Of a stretch of DNA of 40,603 nucleotides, positions 24,994-40,486 are shown piece after piece. The notes beneath the pieces were generated by a model. It worked only from the letters and a program-made list of their open reading frames with translations. It was not told where the DNA came from and did not search any database. A program made the translations under genes and the position numbers. Source of the stretch: a virus; IMG/VR virus record IMGVR_UViG_3300038802_000018, positions 1 through 40,603 of that record; one strand, 5' to 3'. Numbering within the stretch: the stretch's first letter is position 1; the number at the start of each line of letters is the position of its first letter.

Positions 24994-32259
<7,266 letters not shown>

Positions 32260-34980: not shown

Positions 34981-35760
34981 ATGGGAATTAAGTTTGCGAA
35001 TAACGCTAAGACGACGCTTAGCGCCAGTTTAAACAACTCGGCTACAAGCTGTACCGTTACTGATGCCAGCGTGTTTCCCACACTTGGGACATACGACTAT
35101 TTTTACATGACGTTAGAAGACGCTTCTCTAAATGCAGAAGTAGTCAAAGTCACGGCAATTAGTACTAACACGTTGACAATTGTGCGTGCGCAAGATGGCA
35201 CATCAGCTCGTGCCTTTGATTCCGGTAATAAGGCTGAGTTAAGGCTTCCTGCTAAAGCGTTGTCTGATGTAACGAACAACGAGTTCACTGACCCACAGGT
35301 TGCACCAGACGGCACTGTGCGGACACTCACAGTAAAAGTAGTTACAAAGACTCAGAGGCATCCTTACTACAATGTGGGCTCCTCTTCCGGTTACGAGATC
35401 GACGGTGTTGAGTCGCCGTTTATTGAGTTGATCATCGGTAACACTTATAAGTTTGATCAGTCTGACAGCAGTAACGCTAATCATCCGTTACGCATGTATT
35501 ATGACGTGGGTAAAAACCGCGCTTATACAACAAATGTCACAACTAGCGGCACACCCGGGTCTGCTGGTGCGTATACACAGATTGCTGTTACCGAAGCAAC
35601 GCCAAGAGTTTTGTTTTACCAATGCAGTGCCCACGCAAATATGGGCTTCTATGCAGCTAGCGCGACTGACAACAACTACGGTTTTTCTGAAGTAACAACC
35701 ACAGCTCCGTCTAGTGGAGCAAACTACCCGGCAGGATATGTTTGGTATGTAGTGAGTTAA
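34981..35760 (+). CDS. Tail-fibre protein with cupredoxin-like metal motif
   Basis: 259 residues. The first 95 residues are a fibre/collar domain (TTLSASLNNSATSCTVTDAS, EVVKVTAISTNTLTIVRAQDGT, AELRLPAKAL). Residues 115-225 resemble a cupredoxin fold: FIELIIGNTYKFDQ, NHPLRMYYD with H168, and YQCSAHANMGF with C215, H218 and M221, in the C-x2-H-x2-M spacing of type 1 copper sites. Short-tailed and myovirus marine phages are known to carry such YCSxHxxMG segments in structural proteins. Whether copper binds is unproven. Confidence 0.78.
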   Translation: MGIKFANNAKTTLSASLNNSATSCTVTDASVFPTLGTYDYFYMTLEDASLNAEVVKVTAISTNTLTIVRAQDGTSARAFDSGNKAELRLPAKALSDVTNNEFTDPQVAPDGTVRTLTVKVVTKTQRHPYYNVGSSSGYEIDGVESPFIELIIGNTYKFDQSDSSNANHPLRMYYDVGKNRAYTTNVTTSGTPGSAGAYTQIAVTEATPRVLFYQCSAHANMGFYAASATDNNYGFSEVTTTAPSSGANYPAGYVWYVVS

Positions 35761-35764
35761 CAGT

Positions 35765-36742
35765 ATGGCAGATCTAAAGGTTAACGATGGCGGTACTGTA
35801 AAAACACCCGAACGTATATTTACTGTAGGTGCTAGTAATACGCTGTACCAAGTGAACTACGTTGTAGCTAACAACGCTAGTCAAACACCTGTGACCGTTT
35901 GGGACGCGATTTTCGCAACTAGCCGCACTACAACCTTTAATACGACTACGTCGTTTATTACGACTTTTGCGACGACCGGAGATACTACTCAGACCACGAC
36001 TACGTCTTTTGCTACAGGCTTTAATACGAGCCAGTCTACAAGTAATGCTACAACCACTACTTTTAGTACAAGTAGGTCGACTTCGTTTAACACAAGTAAA
36101 TCAACGACGACTAGCTTTACGACCTCTTATAACACAAGTAGATCAACTAGTAGGGCAACGAGCGGAGCTTGGTCAGGTTATACTTATAGCGGCACCACTT
36201 TTTGGGTTACATCTTCAGGCGCCGGTGGGAACACCGGACAAGTTAATTGGGGAGGAACTTATCAAGGCCAGGTTACTGGTACCGCTACTCTTGCACAATT
36301 TGGCAGCTACCAGTATCAACGCGGTAGCGTATATTCAAGTACATATGATTCCAAATTAGGGATTACTTCTACTTATTATTACATACAAAGACGTTATAAC
36401 GTTACGACCAGTTTTACGACGACCTTTGGTACTAGTAGAGGAACTAGTAGAGCAACGACTACCACTTACGCCACAAGTAGAACGACCTCCTTTAATACAA
36501 GCAGATCAACTACAACTACATTCAATACGGCGGTAGGTACAAGCGCAACAACAAGCCGAGACACAACTACCACATTTAGTACGTCTTTCGATACTACAAA
36601 TACAACAAGCCAACTCACGGCTACCAGCAACGCTACGACTGTATATGAACGCGTTACCGCTACAGGGGCAGAAACAGAAGTTTCGTCTGCAGGTGCGCAC
36701 AACATTAGATATTGGGATGGAAGCCAATGGACAGAGGAATAG
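35765..36742 (+). CDS. Thr/Ser-repeat tail fibre
   Basis: 325 residues. Two blocks of low-complexity repeats (residues about 52-135 and 215-300) are built from units such as TSFNTSRSTT, TTFSTSRSTS and TTTSFNTS, mostly 7-8 residues long, and almost all Thr, Ser, Phe/Tyr, Asn and Arg. Between them is a unique Gly/Tyr-rich domain (GNTGQVNWGGTYQGQVTG). The last 30 residues are a compact cap (HNIRYWDGSQWTEE). The repeats should form a thin, regular beta shaft exposing Thr/Ser/Arg faces. It may adapt host binding by changing repeat number. Confidence 0.72.
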   Translation: MADLKVNDGGTVKTPERIFTVGASNTLYQVNYVVANNASQTPVTVWDAIFATSRTTTFNTTTSFITTFATTGDTTQTTTTSFATGFNTSQSTSNATTTTFSTSRSTSFNTSKSTTTSFTTSYNTSRSTSRATSGAWSGYTYSGTTFWVTSSGAGGNTGQVNWGGTYQGQVTGTATLAQFGSYQYQRGSVYSSTYDSKLGITSTYYYIQRRYNVTTSFTTTFGTSRGTSRATTTTYATSRTTSFNTSRSTTTTFNTAVGTSATTSRDTTTTFSTSFDTTNTTSQLTATSNATTVYERVTATGAETEVSSAGAHNIRYWDGSQWTEE

Positions 36743-36876
36743 AAGAAGCAATCGATCTTTTAAATAAGAGAATTGAGGCAACAATAGAAATACTTATGGA
36801 GCATCTGAAAGACACTGAAGAGCGTCTTGAAGCCATGGAGGAAAAGGTTGATGGCTTTTCAGAAGATGTCGAATAA
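36727..36876 (+). CDS. Coiled-coil mini-protein, 49 residues
   Basis: An ATG at 36727 lies inside the end of the fibre gene (16-base overlap) and opens a 49-residue frame, MDRGIEEAIDLLNKRIEATI onward, ending at a TAA at 36876. It is one continuous acidic coiled coil. Its last 26 bases overlap the start of the next gene in another frame. Small coiled coils next to fibre genes often act as chaperones or trimerisation aids; this is inference. Confidence 0.6.
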   Translation: MDRGIEEAIDLLNKRIEATIEILMEHLKDTEERLEAMEEKVDGFSEDVE

Positions 36877-37702
36877 TGAGGTGCTAGGGGATACAGCCGC
36901 GCATTTTTTTAAATCAGGAAACACGTTGCGAGCCGATAACTTTGGTGACGTTATAAAAATATCTGAGCTGCTACCCACCGATCGCAAGATTGAGTACGAC
37001 ATTTGGTACGATAAAAACGACAAGACCACAGTTCATGGTTACGTCTACACTGACATGGCTAATCAGTTTTTGTATATACGGCCAGCTTGTACCGTCAGAA
37101 CGTATCAGACAATGATTGATGCTGCGCAGAGCGACATTACTCAAGAGGGAGAAATGTTATATGAAAAAATACAGCTATGCGCCGACAAGTATAGGCTTCG
37201 AAAAGCGAAAAAAACGCACGACTTTGTGATCTTTCTGCCAGGCAGCAACATCTTCGACAAAATAGCCGACGTTTCTCGTTTACAAAACGCAGTCTCTCAA
37301 GGCGCTAAATGTAAACTGCATCCACTGTCTGCCGCCCCAATGGTGGCCTACTTAAAAAACAAACTAGGCAGCGACTGTCTTCTTGATAAAAATATGTCGG
37401 GCCATCAACTCATGACACAAGCATCTATCGTGGGTGCCTTCACTAATAGTGAAATGGGTCTTATCGCTTCAGCGCTAGGTAAAAAAGTTTATGTCTTTAA
37501 CGACATGCGGGGTGTCTATACCTACTCTGCTTTCTATAACGCAGTGTTCCCAGGTGAATCTTATTCAGAAGAGCGAATGAAGCGCCTTCTTTCGTGTAAA
37601 TCATCAGGGTTAATATCGGTGCACGCTAATGACCCCCAAGAAAATGTAGATTTGTTTTTCCAAAGATTCGAGGATGTGGATGTTAGATTACCTTGTGCTT
37701 GA
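36851..37702 (+). CDS. Glycosyltransferase-like protein (GT-B type, tentative)
   Basis: 283 residues from the ATG at 36851 with GGAGG 9 bases upstream. The C-terminal half has the capsule/teichoic-type GT-B pattern: KLHPLSAAPMVAYLKN, MSGHQLMTQASIVGAFTNSEMGLIASALGKKVYVF, where a Ser/Asn-rich turn is followed by Gly and an [AI]-x-ALGK[KP]V segment that binds the sugar nucleotide. N-terminal half not recognised. It may modify virion proteins or host surface sugars. The neighbouring gene may work with it. Assignment is by motif pattern only. Confidence 0.5.
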   Translation: MAFQKMSNNEVLGDTAAHFFKSGNTLRADNFGDVIKISELLPTDRKIEYDIWYDKNDKTTVHGYVYTDMANQFLYIRPACTVRTYQTMIDAAQSDITQEGEMLYEKIQLCADKYRLRKAKKTHDFVIFLPGSNIFDKIADVSRLQNAVSQGAKCKLHPLSAAPMVAYLKNKLGSDCLLDKNMSGHQLMTQASIVGAFTNSEMGLIASALGKKVYVFNDMRGVYTYSAFYNAVFPGESYSEERMKRLLSCKSSGLISVHANDPQENVDLFFQRFEDVDVRLPCA

Positions 37703-38381
37703 GACTAACGAATTAGCTGCACTAACAATCAATGCTATTAGCCAACACGACCCCGGTGCAACCATACGTTGTGTATCGCCTGGCGAATCATTTGTTGGCA
37801 CAGCCCTAAAACACAGCACTAGTTTAACGATGGTGTTAAAAAGCGGTGTGGTTTGGCGCGGCTCGTCCAGCGATATACCAGAAGTTGCCAGAAACTATCC
37901 GATTTGCGCAAGTGAGTATGCGGTGTTTATTGATAACGACAAGTTGAACCATATCTATCAGTTAAAAGGATCGCCGCTTGCTTTAGGTATAAAGGACCTG
38001 AGCATTTTTCTAATTAACCCAGAGCTATGGGACGACATTCCTGAAACTGACAAAGGTGTTTTTAAAGACAAACGCATCCTTAATATGCCCCGCTACATGA
38101 ATCATAAAGAAGACGAGCTAGTTGTGGGCGGGTTACCCGCTCACCAGTGCTTGTACTATGGCGTATTAGGCCTTAACTCGTTGGCTCTTAACTATGTGAC
38201 TTGTCTGCGTAACCGCAAGGCGTCGGTGTTAGAAACAATAGCATACCCCTTTGACCACTTGACACCTTATGTAAATGGCTTGGATAAAAACGATATTCAT
38301 TTTATAACAAAAGTAGCAGACAAAACGCGCGCTCGCGTCAGCAAGTTGCGCGATGGTCTTGCAAAAATTAATGGAGTCTGA
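37674..38381 (+). CDS. Unknown protein, possible glycosyltransferase-like partner
   Basis: 235 residues, with a second ATG two codons in. It begins LDYLVLETNELAALTINAI, which resembles the first strand and helix of a GT-A fold, and has an acidic AVFIDNDK that could be a DxD-like metal site. The remainder (DLSIFLINPELWDDIPETDK, HQCLYYGVLGLNSLALNY) is not recognised. It overlaps the preceding GT-like gene by 29 bases, so the two are coupled and may act together. Weak evidence. Confidence 0.45.
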   Translation: MWMLDYLVLETNELAALTINAISQHDPGATIRCVSPGESFVGTALKHSTSLTMVLKSGVVWRGSSSDIPEVARNYPICASEYAVFIDNDKLNHIYQLKGSPLALGIKDLSIFLINPELWDDIPETDKGVFKDKRILNMPRYMNHKEDELVVGGLPAHQCLYYGVLGLNSLALNYVTCLRNRKASVLETIAYPFDHLTPYVNGLDKNDIHFITKVADKTRARVSKLRDGLAKINGV

Positions 38382-38382
38382 G

Positions 38383-38598
38383 ATGCCAAGAGTGATTACA
38401 AACAAAGACCCAGTAAATCGGTCTGTGACTTTTAAACAAGGCTATCGAACTATAAAGGTTTATTTAGACCCCTGGCCGGATACTGACGAGGAAATTGAAG
38501 CTCAAGCCAATGCAAAATTACCACCTTATACTGGAGATGATGACTCAAAGGTAAGGGCTTTTTACGCAGATCAAACAGAACCCACGGAGGAATTATGA
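38383..38598 (+). CDS. Small unknown protein, 71 residues
   Basis: The ATG at 38383 follows AATGGAGTCTG. It starts MPRVITNKDPVNRSVTFKQG and has a short beta-rich head (TIKVYLDPWPDTDEEIEAQA) and an acidic end. The stop overlaps the next gene's start by 4 bases. No family recognised. Confidence 0.65.
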   Translation: MPRVITNKDPVNRSVTFKQGYRTIKVYLDPWPDTDEEIEAQANAKLPPYTGDDDSKVRAFYADQTEPTEEL

Positions 38599-39299
38599 CT
38601 CGCCCGTTTACAGACTTGGATTTTACAATCAGCGGCTATTATGACAACAAACTTTTTATGTCAGCGGCTGTTAACCAACCCGCAGGTAGGTACATGGAAA
38701 GAGACACAGTTACGTCTATTAACCACAATAACGACGAAATTGTACGCCATCCTACTATAGACGGTCTTATTCGAAGTGGTGAAAGTCAACTGCTTACAGA
38801 AGGTAGTATTACTATAGAGTTTGATTTAGTCGATGGTTTTACTGCGCAACAACGGGCTAATTTTGAAACTTGGCTTGAGTCAAACGACGAAGGAATGCGC
38901 GACATAACTGGAGGCACATTTACTTACGACAGCGAAAACAACAAGCTTGTGGTTACGTATACATGTGAGTTTGGAAATACAAAATGGCGCCAATTACCGA
39001 TTAAATGGATTCCTGAGTCAAGTACTGCGCGACTTACTTTAGGGGCGAACAGCTCGATTGCATGTTTTCTTAGAATTGATGATGACCCCGACGCATGGAC
39101 GGTTCGAGTTAAAGATATTCCTAGCGGCGCAACGTCGACAATCGATAAAGCAGGTGAGACTTGTTATGTCGCTTTTTCAACAGATGTAACTAAAGACGGT
39201 ACTGCTTTAACCGCTTATAAATTTTATAAAATGACTTCTTCGAGTTTTGATGTTAGCGCAGCTAATAATACTAAGGTCATGAGGGTGCATCATGATTAA
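38595..39299 (+). CDS. Unknown beta-rich protein, probably tail-associated
   Basis: 234 residues after a GGAGGAATT ribosome site. It is beta-rich (ITIEFDLVDGFTAQQR, FTYDSENNKLVVTYTCEFG, AWTVRVKDIPSGATSTIDKAGETC), with no membrane span. Position between fibre genes and the Coq4-like gene gives no clear role. The C-terminal 70 residues resemble a small Ig-like or lectin-like domain in composition. No family named. Confidence 0.65.
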   Translation: MTRPFTDLDFTISGYYDNKLFMSAAVNQPAGRYMERDTVTSINHNNDEIVRHPTIDGLIRSGESQLLTEGSITIEFDLVDGFTAQQRANFETWLESNDEGMRDITGGTFTYDSENNKLVVTYTCEFGNTKWRQLPIKWIPESSTARLTLGANSSIACFLRIDDDPDAWTVRVKDIPSGATSTIDKAGETCYVAFSTDVTKDGTALTAYKFYKMTSSSFDVSAANNTKVMRVHHD

Positions 39300-39999
39300 A
39301 ACGTTGCATGCCTTAAATCAATTCAGAAAGATACGAACAGCGCCTGAATCTGATCGTCTTAAGTACGTTTTTGGGGCTGTTAGAGCTATGGGTGATAAGC
39401 GAGTTGATAAAACTCGAAACCGCTATTTATGTGATAAGAGGTTTTGCGCCCTACTTACAGCCCATCCACGTTTATCCGATATAATTTCTGACACGAATAG
39501 CTTGGAAAAAATGCCTGAAGGTTCTTTAGGGCAAAGGCTTTTTGAGTATCTACAGGATGATCAAGTTGATTATGCTAAATACTTAAGCGAATACAAAAAC
39601 GCGGGGTTAGGAAAAACTGCCGGTGAGTTAAATTATCTTTATAACGCTCGTGAGCGGGACCTTCATGATATTTTTCACATTGTTTTTGATTATGAAAGGA
39701 CTCGTTTTGGTGAAATGGCTACGATTGCTACCCAGTATTGGCAGGGCGGCTCTTCAGGATTTGGATTAATAATGTTTGCGGGTGTGATTCGGTACATGTT
39801 TGTCCGGCCTCGTAAGTCGTTATGGGTATTGAGAGCGTTGTATAACGTTTGGCACCGACAACGTGGTACTGATTTGCGCGTTTATCCATTTGAACAAAAT
39901 CTTGAAAAACCTTTATGGCTTGTGCGCAAAGAACTAGGCGTGAAGCCTAAAAGCTACGCATTAAAGGTAGTTCTTAAAACTGCAAGTTGGAAAGATTAG
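39292..39999 (+). CDS. Coq4-like ubiquinone biosynthesis protein
   Basis: 235 residues. It has the Coq4 pattern: PEGSLGQRLFEYLQDDQVDY, then RERDLHDIFHIVFDYERTRFGE, which contains H125-D126-x2-H129 and E141, exactly HDxxH-x11-E, the metal-binding signature of the family. GSSGFGLIMFAGVIRYM, RALYNVWHRQRGTDL and the ending LEKPLWLVRKELGVKP also fit. In cells Coq4 is needed for ubiquinone synthesis (C1 oxidative decarboxylation of the ring). The catalytic residues are intact, so it may be active. It overlaps the preceding gene by 8 bases, so it is part of the late message. See the finding. Confidence 0.82.
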   Translation: MIKTLHALNQFRKIRTAPESDRLKYVFGAVRAMGDKRVDKTRNRYLCDKRFCALLTAHPRLSDIISDTNSLEKMPEGSLGQRLFEYLQDDQVDYAKYLSEYKNAGLGKTAGELNYLYNARERDLHDIFHIVFDYERTRFGEMATIATQYWQGGSSGFGLIMFAGVIRYMFVRPRKSLWVLRALYNVWHRQRGTDLRVYPFEQNLEKPLWLVRKELGVKPKSYALKVVLKTASWKD

Positions 40000-40012: not shown

Positions 40013-40234
40013 ATGATAGCGGCTATTCAAAACACAGCAATCGAAAAATTTAATGAAATAAGGCACAAACGCTGGTTCAAGATTCTTGCGGGTTTGTTTA
40101 TTATTCGTTGGACAATACGGTTGGCTATTCTTGCTTACATTTTGTGGGCTTTTTTACCCGAACCTGCTTTTTTTATTGAACTAAAAGCTTGGTCTGATTT
40201 TTACAATACGGGGCCTTGCGCAGCGTCCTGTTAA
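40013..40234 (+). CDS. Small membrane protein, 73 residues
   Basis: Follows TTAGGAGTAATTTT. Residues about 20-50 hold one long or two short membrane segments (WFKILAGLFIIRWTIRLAI, YILWAFLPEPAFFI); the end has two Cys (GPCAASC). It lies 13 bases after the Coq4-like gene. It may anchor that protein or act in lysis; neither is shown. Confidence 0.6.
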   Translation: MIAAIQNTAIEKFNEIRHKRWFKILAGLFIIRWTIRLAILAYILWAFLPEPAFFIELKAWSDFYNTGPCAASC

Positions 40235-40276: not shown

Positions 40277-40486
40277 ATGAAGGTTGAAGAGCGCATATTT
40301 GAAGCCATAAGCCGCATAGAGCGACATGAAGCTATGTGCGAAGAACGGTCGAAGACCATCTTCAATCGACTAGATTCTATAGATGAAAGTCTAACTGCGT
40401 TGAATCGGATGGTACTTACAGCAGCGGGAACAGTGATCTTAAGCATGGGCGGGGTGATTGTTTCGCTGCTTTTTCTTTTGAAGTAA
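40277..40486 (+). CDS. XhlA-like coiled-coil membrane protein
   Basis: 69 residues. An N-terminal charged coiled coil (ERIFEAISRIERHEAM, RLDSIDESLTALNRM) leads to one membrane helix at the end (GTVILSMGGVIVSLLFLL). This is the layout of the haemolysin XhlA family (PF10779), often a second lysis or holin-partner protein. It is far from the endolysin/holin pair at 32.5-33.3 kb, so it may be a pinholin or anti-holin-type partner, or serve another membrane role. Confidence 0.65.
   Translation: MKVEERIFEAISRIERHEAMCEERSKTIFNRLDSIDESLTALNRMVLTAAGTVILSMGGVIVSLLFLLK

Follow-up and report, generated by a model that had tools for sequence, protein, structure and literature searches.

A Coq4-family gene with a predicted metal site among the late genes of an aquatic phage, and its homologues in other uncultivated phages

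Background

Known viral auxiliary genes concern photosynthesis, nucleotides and sulphur. The ubiquinone pathway is represented as well: from the Baltic Sea, another of its genes, ubiG, was reported to be carried by viruses as an auxiliary gene (PMC9301287). In vitro work, in which mutants of the metal site were tested, has established COQ4 as a Zn-dependent C1 decarboxylase (PMC7615680), and in human cells it was reported as a one-step oxidative decarboxylase (PMC11495197). Bacteria normally remove the carboxyl group by means of UbiX/UbiD (PMC7615680).

Here we describe a Coq4-family gene in a phage genome. The original prediction knew of no established role for Coq4 in phages, and our searches agree with this: four different viral Coq4 proteins, used as tblastn queries, detected no Coq4 among the 50,697 phage records of INPHARED, and phage Coq4 was found neither in PHROGs or BFVD nor in the open-access literature searched. 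It should be stressed that novelty means absence from these three collections and the papers searched, which is no proof of absence elsewhere.

Results

The DNA analysed, referred to as the window, corresponds to the whole of one IMG/VR virus record (40,603 bases), which is that of an aquatic phage. Comparison of the window genes with Pfam and PHROGs identified a DNA polymerase, a protein of an HNH-annotated PHROG and an ATPase, as well as structural and packaging genes (terminase subunits, portal, major head protein and a 2421-aa virion protein), an endolysin and a tail fibre, which confirms the late, structural phage setting that had been proposed for the Coq4 gene. The window terminase has relatives at 98% in four contigs among the IMG/VR matches listed, the remaining relatives among the best 80 listed being at about 76–90%, and among annotated phages Aeromonas phage phiA008 has the most similar terminase (53%). 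Within the gene of the 2421-aa virion protein, CTCCTG is repeated ten times in tandem (26018–26082).

The Coq4-family gene (39292..39999, + strand) has an ATG start and encodes 235 aa, and its beginning overlaps the upstream ORF (38595–39299) by 8 nt, in line with the overlap noted in the original prediction. Pfam PF05019 (Coq4) matched residues 34–219 (186 residues) with 43.9 bits (E 2.2e-11), well above the curated cut-off of 22.9 bits, and the metal motif HDxxHx11E is exact, being made up of H125, D126, H129 and E141, the last two separated by 11 residues. When 66 homologues from the window and other loci were aligned (identity about 16–26%), R120, R122, D123, H125, D126, H129, G140 and E141 were invariant, and L71, G80, H125, D126, H129, G140, E141 and R212 were so in 16 viral and cellular rows picked for diversity. 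The protein is highly diverged, with only about 28–29% identity over a long stretch to any cellular Coq4. NCBIfam and PHROGs assigned no family to it, and when the single protein was compared with the PDB by phmmer, the Coq4 structure 3MSQ appeared at E 0.38, ranked below the unrelated TRPM3.

With the 66 homologues as input alignment, AlphaFold2 produced an all-helical model with a mean pLDDT of 88.8 and a pTM of 0.84. Used as a Foldseek query against the PDB, this model retrieved three chains below E 0.001 and no others, one of 3MSQ and two of 6E12, all of them Coq4. VIA-align superimposed the model on 6E12 with Z 19.2 (rmsd 2.8 over 201 residues) and on 3MSQ with Z 19.0 (rmsd 2.9), the top unrelated row having Z 3.3. 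A PDB search with the 66-homologue profile likewise picked out just those two structures (E 7e-22 and 2e-20), and the motif ligands of the window protein align in sequence with their counterparts in both structures; from this alignment and the model we infer that the four metal ligands come together. A search of BFVD with the model gave nothing better than E 0.9. Since the Pfam match, the match of the predicted fold and the PDB profile matches with aligned motif all agree, we regard membership of the Coq4 family as secure on sequence and modelling grounds, and the proposed Coq4-like protein with an intact metal site has thus stood up both to the family profile and to comparison of the fold.

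To place the gene in its genomic context, the window was compared gene by gene with eight longer relatives; the genes in this and the next paragraph whose coordinates are joined by two dots are on the + strand. The conserved left border of the tract that contains the Coq4 gene is a tail-fibre base (34981..35760, PHROG tail fibre E 3.9e-43), which has 41–58% identity in related phages, and the conserved right border is an XhlA/holin-like gene (40277..40486), with 47–56% identity in four related phages. The assignment of the latter is based on weak Pfam and PHROG matches (XhlA E 7e-4, below the cut-off, together with hemolysin and holin PHROGs). The next gene starts at about 40496, and its beginning resembles that of the structural gene at the same place in the relatives. 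The Coq4 gene is consequently flanked by viral genes on both sides, the tail fibre to the left and the XhlA-like gene and structural gene start to the right, i.e. a metabolic-type gene stands between viral genes on a virus contig, as is looked for in an auxiliary gene.

Directly after the tail fibre follows a 325-aa protein (35765–36742) consisting mostly of Thr/Ser-rich near-repeats (TTSFNTSRSTTTTF-like), for which INPHARED provided no match. The next gene in the variable tract (36827..37702) encodes a PHROG 26179 protein (E 2.8e-38). Its homologues in Caulobacter phage Lullwater and Stenotrophomonas phage DLP6 are encoded next to holin, so that it may be part of another mobile module of the fibre/lysis region. 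Thereafter come a small protein of 81 aa at the head of the Coq4 cassette (38353..38598), the 234-aa partner protein (38595..39299), Coq4 itself and, directly after it, a 73-aa hydrophobic protein (40013..40234) whose 19-residue hydrophobicity mean of 1.9 indicates that it is probably a membrane protein. The partner has no recognised family and no Pfam match, and its structure model (pLDDT 48.5) was too poor for a fold search.

Four relatives, with terminases at 78–81%, cover the whole interval from the tail-fibre base to the XhlA/holin gene, and all of them are without Coq4. The genes inside this interval vary between relatives and are mostly fibre-like or of no recognised function. Nor was any Coq4 match obtained in 50 records picked by terminase similarity, many of which are fragments. 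GC content is 41% in the Coq4 gene and its upstream partner, compared with 48% in the structural arm and 47% in the window. Because the interval is variable in the relatives and the GC content is lowered, the Coq4 gene looks to be an acquisition lying in an exchangeable tract. The relatives, the 50 records and the GC difference all speak against the claim in the original prediction that the gene is a fixed part of the phage and not a recent passenger; the overlap with the neighbour is no proof of fixation, since that neighbour belongs to the same exchangeable cassette.

These same observations (relatives lacking Coq4, deviating GC content and a variable location) are what one would expect if the gene were a recent passenger that does little or nothing for this phage. 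We nevertheless find such an explanation unlikely, as the reading frame is open with all conserved residues present and homologous cassettes occur in distant phages, where they are under purifying selection. An assembly artefact, in which a gene of bacterial origin was fused to phage sequence, is far less probable still: the exact gene was found in a single copy, with no near-identical second contig in IMG/VR, but phage genes occupy both flanks in the order seen in the relatives, through the XhlA-like gene and into the next structural gene start, and the upstream partner is a viral protein that is linked to Coq4 elsewhere.

The 234-aa partner is homologous to 233-aa proteins of marine contigs (pairwise blastp, E 5e-9 to L263). 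A scan for the partner family identified 10 viral contigs with homologues of 227–233 aa, and in 10/10 a Coq4-like ORF comes after the partner, the motif HDxxHx11E having been read in nine; nine of these contigs were read directly, six of them around the partner, while L305 is counted from the partner hit and a correctly placed Coq4 hit. Wherever the DNA after Coq4 was read (L263, L264, L304, L306 and L307–L310), it encodes a hydrophobic protein of 69–80 aa, and an 85-aa protein precedes the partner in L263–L265, L304 and L306, similar in position and size to the 81-aa protein of the window. For the 81-aa and 73-aa window proteins, place and size agree with those of the counterparts elsewhere, sequence homology being not significant. 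The recurrent pairing with the 234-aa protein and the small hydrophobic protein favours a dedicated unit, but is equally compatible with both functions suggested in the original prediction, upkeep of host respiration during late infection and a new use as a virion or quinone-binding protein.

To judge from their terminases (33–34% to that of the window), the L306 and L265 records are distant cousins of the window phage. They also have a matching tail-fibre base (about 50%), and the two matches together locate the cassette in a comparable region. The L307–L310 type, on the other hand, is a different phage from that of the window. No match was obtained in INPHARED by tblastn with a homologue of the 234-aa partner.

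Going by contig names, Coq4 homologues were found in 74 further contigs of IMG/VR, although several of these probably represent one virus that was sampled repeatedly. A search of IMG/VR with the single window protein gave no homologue, and the viral homologues were reached only with alignment (profile-style) queries; all 38 representative viral records tested (38/38) passed the PF05019 cut-off. In T4-like phages, Coq4 is located between terminase and tail sheath, near or overlapping the terminase end, and in the cultured phage S-IOM18, which is related to these carriers, the terminase is directly followed by a gp18-like tail sheath gene. Large phages of up to 360 kb have a glycosyltransferase, Coq4 and a 207-aa protein, usually with a radical-SAM protein. 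This cluster, in which the 207-aa protein is conserved, was seen in L249, L254, L255, L259 and L270, where most add the radical-SAM protein with weak B12-binding similarity, and it looks like a small biosynthetic pathway. One 46-kb contig encodes Hsp20, holin, endolysin, Coq4 and a weak match to 2OG-Fe(II) oxygenases, and marine contigs of two types share the window's order of partner, Coq4 and hydrophobic protein. As judged from dN/dS values of 0.09–0.51 in 12 within-group pairs, the viral Coq4 relatives are under purifying selection, i.e. the protein is being kept.

On a maximum-likelihood tree of 60 rows, the label has to switch between viral and cellular three times or more. The copies from T4-like and large phages form one supported clade beside Caulobacterales and Sphingomonas sequences, that of the 46-kb contig groups with Pseudomonadales, and the copies of the marine cassettes form a remote clade. 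The window Coq4 has a branch length of 2.98 and is joined to another long branch, which makes its placement unsure; its connection to the marine cassettes is accordingly based on the shared partner and gene order and not on the tree. Among the cellular loci, two different Coq4 genes occur within about 2 kb of each other in several genomes of the Erythrobacter group (L158, L160, L164, L166, L177, L195 and others). On two sphingomonad plasmids, Coq4 (L082, 3890–4687; L083, 3806–4603) shares an operon with genes for acyl-CoA dehydrogenases and a nitronate monooxygenase, and a P450 gene lies nearby. These operons appear catabolic and are not ubiquinone operons, which suggests that the Coq4 family is not restricted to ubiquinone synthesis.

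Discussion

We consider it demonstrated that the window protein belongs to the Coq4 family and has its fold and an intact metal site, that its gene is located among late genes, and that such genes recur across phage lineages and are linked to the partner. Beyond this, the window Coq4 is most likely a late-expressed, metal-dependent lipid or quinone enzyme, with a presumed substrate that is suggested by analogy. More specifically, we tentatively propose, at somewhat less than an even chance, that the gene specifies an accessory late Coq4 metalloprotein, carried in an exchangeable cassette, that supports quinone supply by COQ4-like chemistry. To go by the position of its gene, the protein would be produced late, and it would be situated next to the small hydrophobic protein, at the cytoplasmic membrane's inner face, where it would bind a divalent metal and act on a prenylated ring or a similar lipid. 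If it behaves like COQ4, the C1 carboxyl of the ubiquinone precursor would be removed and possibly replaced by a hydroxyl. Bacterial hydroxylation of that ring position is performed by a separate enzyme. Given the decarboxylation reported for COQ4 (PMC7615680, PMC11495197) and the separate bacterial steps, a single phage gene could bypass both the UbiX/UbiD and the hydroxylase steps late in infection, and such a bypass would keep up quinone supply and membrane energisation until lysis.

What counts against a role in ubiquinone synthesis is that Pfam and PHROGs revealed no further gene of this pathway among those window genes that were scanned. Moreover, the low identity to cellular Coq4 and the very long branch imply that the substrate may have changed, and the catabolic-looking plasmid operons imply that family membership does not fix the pathway. 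The main alternative, which we rate as only slightly less likely than our proposal, is that the Coq4 fold has been repurposed together with the partner and the membrane protein, to bind or modify another lipid, a glycan carrier or a tail-fibre component or to act in the timing of lysis, no ubiquinone being made. The strict link to a non-ubiquinone partner (10/10), the position among fibre and holin genes, the long branch, and the genes adjacent to Coq4 in other phages (glycosyltransferase, radical-SAM and 2OG-Fe(II) oxygenase genes, or holin/endolysin) would all agree with such a change, whereas the family's metal ligands and adjacent residues are unchanged, as one would expect of a protein that has kept its original chemistry, and a place among structural genes may merely reflect late expression. 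A related suggestion, which we doubt rather more than we believe, is that partner, Coq4 and small membrane protein make up a dedicated late phage module that is exchanged at the tail-fibre/holin locus, and in which the fold of a quinone enzyme has been co-opted for a task of the virus's own in membrane or virion.

Since several uncultivated phages that are unrelated to one another have similar Coq4 genes late in their genomes, viruses seem to have adopted these genes more than once. Their recurrence in several phage lineages, the purifying selection and the mostly late or accessory place point to a repeated viral need concerning quinones or membrane lipids. The idea is directly testable, as the enzyme is small and encoded by a single gene and the complementation assay is simple, and the highly diverged viral homologues should be useful for working out how Coq4 acts, which is a debated matter.

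With regard to known systems, the window protein shares with bacterial Coq4 (PF05019; Alr8543 = 6E12, Npun02000094 = 3MSQ) the fold, the motif HDxxHx11E and a C-terminal conserved Arg/Leu region, but it is only 15–19% identical to these two proteins and its gene resides in a phage late cassette, with no adjacent quinone or catabolic enzyme genes recognised. With eukaryotic COQ4, the C1 (oxidative) decarboxylase of coenzyme Q synthesis, it has in common the metal motif implicated in activity (PMC7615680); no COQ partners were recognised in the phage, however, and a corresponding activity of the phage protein is proposed by analogy. Viral ubiG (PMC9301287) likewise represents a ubiquinone-pathway family in aquatic viruses, but it belongs to another protein family and another step (methyltransferase). 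The other viral Coq4 genes in IMG/VR, from T4-like, large and marine phages, are of the same family and in a late or accessory position as in the window, although their phage backgrounds and neighbours differ from those of the window copy and those of T4-like and large phages constitute a clade of their own.
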